Below are positions 43,210-44,939 of a stretch of DNA of 64,000 nt, in pieces (positions within the stretch are counted from its first letter, which is position 1; each line of letters begins with the position of its first letter). The position numbers were made by a program, and so were the translations under genes. The stretch comes from Pseudochrobactrum sp. sp1633 (GTDB taxonomy: Bacteria; Pseudomonadota; Alphaproteobacteria; Rhizobiales; Rhizobiaceae), in the NCBI RefSeq assembly GCF_030376605.1, contig NZ_JARRAE010000009.1, positions 62,001 through 126,000 of the forward strand, in the 5' to 3' direction. The notes under the pieces are model-generated. The model made no database searches, was not told the DNA's origin, and saw nothing but the letters and a program-made list of their open reading frames with translations.

Positions 43210-43603
43210 ACTGCTCTGCTCCCTGCCCCTATGTCTCCGTCAAAAAAGCGCAGGCTTCCACCCGAACATTTGCCGGAAATGACACAAAAAGCAGGCAATT
43301 TCACTGAAATAGATATCACTATGCGATTCAAAGCTGCTGATTTAACTGCATAAGCGCATCATTGACTTCTGAAAAAGTTATTTCGCAGGTTATAACAGGC
43401 TTAAACACACCTTCAGAGCAGTCGATTTCACATTATTTAATTCCCTGTTTAATGTCGTGCATTCAGCAATCATTTTGTGCGTTTTCAGGACACAGCGTTG
43501 CCGGTTATGCGACTTGATTTATGTGAAGCCGCGACATAAATTCACCTCATGCAGACAAGCTGCGGCTCGCTCCTCAGTTTGTCTGCATAGTAATTTTAAT
43601 CCA
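43210..43603. other. Intergenic leader region before the FMN riboswitch
   Basis: No coding frame is supported. It contains the divergent promoters of the amino-acid permease operon and of ribN. A 10-bp stem-loop is at 43549-43588 (ATGCAGACAA paired to TTGTCTGCAT around 20 nt), directly ahead of the riboswitch. Confidence 0.45.
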
Positions 43604-43903
43604 GTTCTCAGGGCGGGGTGTAATTCCCCACCGGCGGTAACAGGCGTAAGTCTGAAGCCCGCGAGCGCTTAATTGGAATGCAAAGCAGGCACCAAACATA
43701 GAGTGCGCCTGCCCGTATTCTGGTTATAGCGTGCTGAAAATGGTGTTTTCCGAGAACCGGAGCGGAGTGTACTTTTAGTACATGAGCACCGGAAGTGTAG
43801 AAAAACGACATTTGCAAGCCGCTAGAGCCTGAATACTCCAGTTAGGGTCAGCAGATTCGGTGTGATTCCGAAGCCGACGGTCATAGTCCGGATGCAAGAG
43901 AAC
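43604..43903 (+). ncRNA. FMN riboswitch (RFN element) with expanded variable region
   Basis: The conserved blocks are present in order. P1 is GTTCTC (43604-43609) paired with GAGAAC (43898-43903). Then come AGGGCGGGGTG, TTCCCCACCGGCGGTAA, AGCCCGCGAGCGC, CAGCAGATTCGGTGTGATTC, CCGAAGCCGACGGT and ATAGTCCGGATG. The aptamer is stretched to 300 nt by an insert of about 170 nt between the GAGCGC and CAGCAG blocks. It precedes a RibN-like gene. A GACGGC-TACCT-GCCGTC hairpin (43928-43944) after P1 may be the expression platform. Confidence 0.93.
43715..43836. repeat. 122-nt palindromic insert inside the FMN riboswitch
   Basis: Nested complementary arms run from GTATTC (43715-43720) and GAATAC (43831-43836) inward through TAGCG/CGCTA and GTTTT/AAAAC to a tip TGTAC-TTTTA-GTACA. 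The composition and interrupted dyad resemble the dispersed palindromic repeats known in Brucellaceae (Bru-RS-like). That identity is inference. Confidence 0.5.
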
Positions 43904-44012
43904 GGGGCTGAAATGGCATTGTTGTGTGACGGCTACCTGCCGTCCGTATTATGCGTTTTTCTTCCCGTACTATTCCCCTGAGGTAACAGGCTTACGAGAC
44001 AGGAAGAAAACG

Positions 44013-44939
44013 TTGAGCCCAATTGCCTCTGTTCAGACTTTAAAACCAACCGTCCGCGGTGCCGCTCTCATGCTGGCTGCTGCGGCCGCCTATGCAGGCG
44101 TCAATGTTGCCACCCAATGGGCAGGCACACGCACCGGCATTCCTTCAGTCATCATTGCTTTTTGGCAATATGTGGTTGCCCTTGTGCTCACATTGCCGCT
44201 GCTGATCCGCGAAGGCACAAAAGCACTGCGCACCAATCATCTCGGGTTGCATGTTATTCGCGTAGCTCTGGCTGCCGCCGGTGTGCAGGTCTGGATTTTT
44301 GCCCTCACCCATGTGCCAATCTGGCAGGTGATTGCGCTATCCATGACCTCGCCGTTTTTTGTTATTCTCTGCGCACGATTATTCCTGCGTGAAGAGGTAA
44401 CACAAACACGCCTGCTCACCACTTTGGCAGGCTTTGTCGGCGCGTTGATTATCATCGCCCCGTGGTCAGATACCTATACTGTCTATTCTCTGCTGCCAAT
44501 TCTGGCCGCAGCGCTCTGGGCAGGCTATTCGGTGATGACCAAATATCTGACCCGTTTTGAAACAACGGCCAGCATTTCCGTTTATATGCTGATCCTGCTA
44601 ACACCGATTAACGGCGCACTCTGGGTTGCATCAGGTGTCGGATTTCCGGAGATTGCAGCGCCGTCTATGGAAATCTGGTCAATTCTGCTGACCATCGGCA
44701 TTCTCACTGCAATGGCACAGTATTTCCAGATCGCAGCCTACTCAGCTGCGGATGCTGTTTATTTGCAGCCTTTTGATGATCTGAAACTGCCGCTGAATGT
44801 CATTCTCGGCTGGATCGTTTTTGCCGCTGCGCCAAGCATTAATTTCTGGCCGGGTGCTCTGCTGATTGTCGGCGCATCGCTCTATCTGATGCGTCAGGAC
44901 AGCGGGCGCTCCTCACCACAAATACAAGCAGCACAATGA
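44013..44939 (+). CDS. ribN: EamA/DMT-family riboflavin transporter (RibN-like)
   Basis: A 308-aa membrane protein with ten helices and two EamA repeats (GAALMLAAAAAYAGVNVATQW, then LLPILAAALWAGYSVMTKYL). The FMN riboswitch upstream and the family assign it as the RibN riboflavin importer of alphaproteobacteria. A TTG at 44013 with AGGAA 8 nt upstream is the preferred start; longer frames run into the riboswitch platform. Confidence 0.85.
   Translation: MSPIASVQTLKPTVRGAALMLAAAAAYAGVNVATQWAGTRTGIPSVIIAFWQYVVALVLTLPLLIREGTKALRTNHLGLHVIRVALAAAGVQVWIFALTHVPIWQVIALSMTSPFFVILCARLFLREEVTQTRLLTTLAGFVGALIIIAPWSDTYTVYSLLPILAAALWAGYSVMTKYLTRFETTASISVYMLILLTPINGALWVASGVGFPEIAAPSMEIWSILLTIGILTAMAQYFQIAAYSAADAVYLQPFDDLKLPLNVILGWIVFAAAPSINFWPGALLIVGASLYLMRQDSGRSSPQIQAAQ

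Follow-up and report, generated by a model that had tools for sequence, protein, structure and literature searches.

The FMN riboswitch (RFN element) in front of ribN in Pseudochrobactrum sp. sp1633 carries a copy of a dispersed palindromic repeat inside its own aptamer, in the variable stem P4. The leader lies in what we call the window, the whole stretch of 64,000 nucleotides that was analysed (C56:62001-126000 of genome G000, which comprises 3.89 Mb in 56 contigs). We consider it highly probable that this is an ordinary FMN riboswitch on ribN and that the repeat has been sitting in the head of P4 since the ancestor of Pseudochrobactrum, inherited vertically, tolerated and lost once. That a dispersed repeat is tolerated in a riboswitch had been proposed in a first-pass annotation of this DNA, and the proposal gains support from the copies elsewhere in the genome and from the intact core letters of the aptamer.

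The conserved core segments of the aptamer are complete, stand in the right order and lie upstream of an EamA-family gene. A permissive search with the full RF00050 model gave two matches, 43600-43738 at 50.0 bits and 43741-43907 at 52.3 bits, and the whole-genome search agreed. The 5' core (P1, P2, P3) is covered by the first match, and the second contributes the 3' core (P5, P6 and the 3' strand of P1); between the two core halves lie the P4 arms, a small hairpin and the palindrome (Table 1). The stem names P1-P6 and the permissiveness of P4 follow the Rfam structure line, the relatives and what is usual in this class. In the permissive match the core letters flanking the insert are intact, and the earlier placement of the insert in the variable stem P4, with the core letters spared, is thereby borne out. 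The element had also been called overlong, which is correct: the aptamer takes up about 300 nt in the window, whereas the nine leaders from outside the genus, which have no insert, need 148-153 nt and the insert-free leader of AFS058694 (L061) 196 nt. The size of 120 nt first given for the insert needs amendment, as the palindrome is real and the repeat proper measures 122 nt, while the small hairpin, which is separate from the repeat, also adds length to P4. In the minimum-energy fold of the leader 43600-43905, P1, P2 and P3 are kept and the palindrome forms its own branch beyond P4; P5 and P6 do not take their canonical form in this fold.

Table 1. Features of the ribN leader and gene, in positions of the window.
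Feature	Position	Strand	Basis
FMN riboswitch aptamer (RFN element), variable stem P4 interrupted	43600..43907	+	two sub-cut-off RF00050 matches
P1 5' strand, partner 43898-43906	43601..43609	+	inverted repeat; P1 in minimum-energy fold
P4 5' arm, partner 43837-43846	43668..43677	+	Rfam structure line (variable fourth helix); pairing from folds
Small hairpin within P4, separate from repeat, fast-evolving	43685..43712	+	fold; divergence among six carriers
122-nt copy of the dispersed palindromic repeat	43715..43836	+	fold, BLAST, covariation, match of model R1 at 43709-43841
P4 3' arm	43837..43846	+	Rfam structure line, folds
Aptamer core 3' half (P5, P6, P1 3' strand)	43847..43906	+	permissive Rfam match
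Predicted masking strand, pairs with 44002-44010	43957..43965	+	predicted folds of window, L058, L061
ribN ribosome-binding region (GGAAGAAAA), directly before the TTG start	44002..44010	+	sequence, fold
ribN, EamA-family riboflavin transporter, proposed TTG start	44013..44939	+	PF00892, E 2.6e-20

A copy of the repeat would have come into the head of P4 in the ancestor of Pseudochrobactrum, possibly by transposition. Transcribed within the leader, it would fold as a hairpin of its own beyond P4, and because this hairpin is separate it should leave the FMN-binding core and the ribosome-masking platform alone. Judged from the sequence, the leader should still bind FMN and FMN should still switch ribN off: FMN would stabilise P1, so that the ribosome site stays masked, and without FMN the 3' strand of P1 might, in our reading, pair with the masking strand. 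The branch formed by the insert would touch neither P1 nor the platform, and the insert may thus have no effect on the switch. The platform pairing is predicted in the window, in P. kiredjianiae (L058) and in AFS058694; it is missing from the best fold of L064, the one Brucella leader tested, and in the window it is not unusually stable (z = -1.39). A terminator scan of 43300-44100 gave one site, at 43497-43513 upstream of the aptamer, which is near the shuffled mean of 0.7, and there was no promoter match.

The palindrome itself is well defined. All arms named at first sight are present: GTATTC (43715-43720) with GAATAC (43831-43836) on the outside, TAGCG (43727-43731) with CGCTA (43820-43824) in the middle and TGTAC (43768-43772) with GTACA (43778-43782) at the tip, all positions being counted by eye. 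The segment 43710-43845 folds at -47.7 kcal/mol (z = -4.7), with none of 200 shuffles equally stable. When 43700-43850 was compared with its own genome by BLAST, 15 further matches were found (E <= 2.7e-4; two of them are the halves of one interrupted copy), so we are dealing with a repeat and not with a chance palindrome, and the suspicion that no other copies exist can be dropped. An alignment of 13 dispersed copies over 137 columns gave a common fold of 35 pairs, 19 of which show changes on both sides; not one of 500 shuffles matched any of five covariation measures, and paired cells reached 93.8%, against 30-38% when the partners were slid. The outer arms vary among copies with pairing retained; the inner letters are almost fixed. 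Several copies per genome together with a conserved self-complementary fold mark this as a dispersed palindromic repeat.

Of the two strands of the repeat, the one present in the ribN mRNA has the better fold, by about 10 kcal/mol, at 42 of 43 places (one copy each) and in 108 of 112 copies, counts that are not independent because the copies share descent. The same holds for all five ribN copies tested. Such a bias fits a repeat family that acts as single-stranded nucleic acid, RNA or DNA, and it does not single out ribN among the repeat loci.

With R1, a covariance model of the palindrome family, about 20 distinct places were counted by hand in G000 among the matches listed. R1 matched in all seven Pseudochrobactrum genomes (16-26 matches each, some places being counted on both strands), in 32 of 35 Brucella-genus genomes (E <= 1e-3) and in 39 of 121 sampled family genomes (E <= 1e-6; the genus itself included). 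Relatives were found by BLAST on 27 plasmid records as well: Sphingobium (13), Shinella (5), Phyllobacterium (3), Agrobacterium (3) and one record each of Allorhizobium, Novosphingobium and Ensifer. The plasmid copies of Sphingobium and Novosphingobium (hits H16-H25, H30, H32, H33) belong to hosts from another family than that of the window, a hint that the palindrome spreads horizontally. One copy in the genome of the window (G000:C12:109909-110104, L017/L018) is broken near its tip by an insert of about 100 bases that is itself apparently self-complementary. Of the 15 own-genome copies flanked on either side by a long ORF, 10 sit between convergent ORFs according to purely mechanical ORF calls (L144-L163, element from 1201 onward); the copy in the 5' leader of ribN may be unusual in its position, given these mostly convergent settings.

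How such a repeat moves is a separate matter. We infer that it is mobile from its dispersal and from its presence and absence. At another repeat locus, one pair with a full and an empty site shows an insertion of about 145 bases and no clear target-site duplication, the junctions being read by eye. A Y1 (RAYT) transposase as the mover is unsupported: a search limited to PF01797 (Y1_Tnp) gave no match in G000, which holds the repeat, and PF01797 occurs in two of the seven Pseudochrobactrum genomes compared with seven of seven for the repeat.

For the comparison of leaders we took in 16 of the 18 ribN loci of our genome collection. L074 and L075 (24-25% identity) were left out, and the more distant ribN loci L029-L044 and L057 lie outside it. 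The insert is present in six of the seven Pseudochrobactrum leaders, namely the window, P. kiredjianiae (L058), P. saccharolyticum (L059), P. asaccharolyticum (L060), a Brucellaceae MAG (L062) and L073; the seventh genus genome, AFS058694, has a leader without it. All nine leaders of the Brucella genus, Paenochrobactrum and Devosia that have a riboswitch lack the insert and show short P4 stems with full Rfam scores, so the relatives do not all share one and the same extended stem. L072 of the Brucella genus showed no riboswitch within 450 nt upstream and was dropped from the leader counts. L073 (JAHREI010000007.1) is titled Bacillus subtilis SK6B4 and groups within Pseudochrobactrum, with 92% RibN identity and as sister to P. 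asaccharolyticum.

In a tree of six genes around ribN, with the outgroups represented by ribN alone, AFS058694 and P. saccharolyticum are sisters with 99% support and share 95.9% identity across the six genes. One absence is thus nested among carriers, and since AFS058694 has no insert though its sister is a carrier, the insert was probably lost there. Most simply, the repeat entered once, ahead of the radiation of the genus, and was lost once. Support for the deepest branchings within the genus is weak (29% and 56%). The ribN copies are inherited: the nearest neighbour of a copy belongs to its own orthologous group for 95 of 99 grouped copies, which argues against re-insertion or conversion. 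The nearest neighbour lies in the same genome for only 5 of 113 copies, and gene conversion or repeated re-insertion as the source of the likeness among ribN copies is ruled out by these two counts, with P. saccharolyticum as the weakest case. Its ribN copy differs by 0.138-0.187 from the other ribN copies and by 0.187 from the nearest copy elsewhere; the inferred loss rests on the orthology of this copy, for which the margin is modest. An independent insertion at the same ribN site is unlikely, a judgement to be read together with the weak deep order and the modest margin of P. saccharolyticum. The orthology test was made without the interrupted copy mentioned above, the partial copy G000:C1:330337 and G123:C6:210501. 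Genome G125 (61% complete) stood outside the orthologous grouping and the conservation ranking; its ribN copy was added to the pairing and nearest-neighbour tests.

Has the repeat then come to serve a function in the ribN leader, such as stabilising P4 or the mRNA, and been kept by selection for it? Such domestication, which had been put forward at the outset, appears unlikely to us, even if some of the divergence values might be read in its favour. As mean pairwise difference among the six carriers (15 pairs), the aptamer halves are the most conserved parts (0.047 and 0.055), followed by the insert (0.095) and the platform (0.127), whereas the hairpin taken together with the P4 5' arm reaches 0.324 and the four-fold sites of ribN 0.37. 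Taken by itself the value of the insert would suggest constraint, and pairing is retained in all six ribN copies, with changes on both sides in 3 of 42 pairs. As a control we used the other copies of the repeat, for which 112 copies fetched from six genomes were sorted; 29 orthologous groups resulted, and 14 places stayed single. The group means span 0.017-0.196, and the ribN group, at 0.103, ranks 19th of the 29 in conservation; other loci are about equally conserved, as are its own flanks, which differ by 0.134. Because the groups span different genome pairs, a comparison within pairs was added. Where P. saccharolyticum is not part of the pair, the ribN copy belongs to the slower copies (13 of 57 values from other loci are as low or lower), a hint of less than full neutrality there. 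Where P. saccharolyticum is part of the pair, the ribN copy is rather fast, with 26 of 33 values from other loci as low or lower. Together these values might hint at constraint in most species and relaxation in the clade of the loss. Presence agrees with this: all six genomes share three of the 29 groups, and ribN belongs to the five groups that are found in five genomes. Overall the ribN copy is unexceptional in conservation, so that compared with the 28 other orthologous repeat loci domestication by unusual conservation is unsupported; in addition, the copy is absent in one lineage, AFS058694, whose riboswitch is intact without it at 110.7 bits. Copies at many loci (L144-L255) are less divergent between species, at the 0.017-0.196 given above, than the four-fold sites of ribN.

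One might also suppose that the insert broke the switch, leaving the leader blind to FMN and ribN unregulated in the carriers, since the Rfam score is below the cut-off in every one of them. We regard this as rather less probable than domestication. The low score is explained by the insert splitting the aptamer, as the insert-free sister leader L061 reaches its full score and each half in the carriers matches its own part of the model. Furthermore, the low divergence of the core in the carriers fits a working aptamer and not a long-dead switch, and the P4 arms retain their pairing. A more radical version of events would let the repeat act as RNA, with a one-strand hairpin selected genome-wide, and let a double-strand nuclease cut the ribN copy, which would leave FMN to be sensed by a natural two-piece aptamer held together by base pairing alone. 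The one-strand folding bias, with its non-independent counts, fits the first step, that of RNA action, and we hold this scenario to be very improbable; if it were true, the insertion of the repeat would have split what had been a one-piece riboswitch. That the insert is simply an ordinary long variable stem of local origin has next to no likelihood. The length of P4 does vary in FMN riboswitches, and the small hairpin next to the repeat is such a stem. For 43715-43836, however, a local origin is refuted by the dispersed copies in many places and genomes, and the stretch is absent from all nine outgroup leaders with a riboswitch. We therefore favour an ordinary FMN riboswitch with a tolerated repeat, for which P. 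saccharolyticum and AFS058694, as sister species with and without the insert, provide a natural pair in which tolerance could be tested.

How does this leader compare with known systems? A ribN gene with an FMN riboswitch is known in alphaproteobacteria, according to an excerpt of PMC4418817; it was from the FMN riboswitch upstream and from the RibN family described there that the present gene was, by analogy, tentatively named. Core letters, helices and gene context are the same as in that known system, and the differences here are the length (300 compared with about 150 nt), the repeat in P4 and the score under the Rfam cut-off. As excerpted from Barrick and Breaker 2007 (PMC2258182), riboswitches tolerate long stem-loops as ‘variable insertions’, and some true cases score low. 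The ribN insert resembles these: it is a long stem-loop, its site is permissive, the core is spared and the score under the covariance model drops. The excerpt calls them nonconserved and gives no origin for them, whereas the ribN insert is traced to a dispersed family; variable insertions being known already, the new part is a traceable dispersed-repeat origin for one long insertion of this kind. In the trp operon of pneumococcus two T-box riboswitches have a BOX element between them, and the authors judge in the excerpt that regulation still works (PMC3049150). The BOX element is likewise a dispersed bacterial repeat co-transcribed in a riboswitch leader, but it lies between two aptamers and the ribN repeat lies inside one.

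The repeat had also been likened to dispersed palindromic repeats of Brucellaceae, and copies are indeed found by BLAST and R1 across Brucellaceae and beyond. Bru-RS1 and Bru-RS2 are palindromic repeats of Brucella of 103-106 bp (excerpts of PMC10800456, PMC3163539, PMC2266754 and PMC2267715); like the R1 family they are palindromic, about 100-120 bp long, intergenic and from Brucellaceae, in a comparison by description and not by letters. Kinship between the two is plausible, with agreement in kind only (length, palindrome). In the open-licence literature sampled, we found no FMN aptamer described as containing a dispersed repeat, an absence that carries little weight. Palindromic repeats that land inside functional sequences are familiar from another family in another host, the Rickettsia palindromic elements, which land in genes. 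No riboswitch case is known for them.

The interruption has a practical consequence. At the gathering cut-off of RF00050 (66.2 bits) the window aptamer is not assigned to the family, and Rfam at cut-off found nothing across the 64-kb window. All six carriers (five leaders tested and the window) stay under the cut-off and all ten insert-free leaders pass it with 110.7-118.7 bits; genome-wide, ribN shows only sub-cut-off halves in the six carriers and a full match in AFS058694. The curated-cut-off FMN model hence has a small but real blind spot that hides the ribN switch in six of six carrier genomes, and because Rfam misses the switch, a vitamin transporter appears unregulated there. Repeats of this kind may conceal other structured RNAs, although the remaining 42 repeat loci of the genus showed none. 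In an Rfam scan of one copy from each of 43 Pseudochrobactrum loci and from 17 of 30 Brucella-genus loci, the ribN copy alone falls within a riboswitch already described (E limit 0.05 in one batch and 0.01 in the others, at which split matches of other families could escape). Weak matches far under the cut-off occur near or partly over copies in L144, L147 and L124 and apart from the copy in L202 and L121.

Six of the seven genus genomes have a further FMN riboswitch, which is uninterrupted, the exception being the incomplete G125. In G000 it lies at L001 1501-1654 (G000:C45:239809-239962) with 117 bits and offers an in-genome contrast to the ribN leader. The gene downstream of it may encode a lumazine synthase, as its start, read by eye, resembles that of RibH2 of Brucella.
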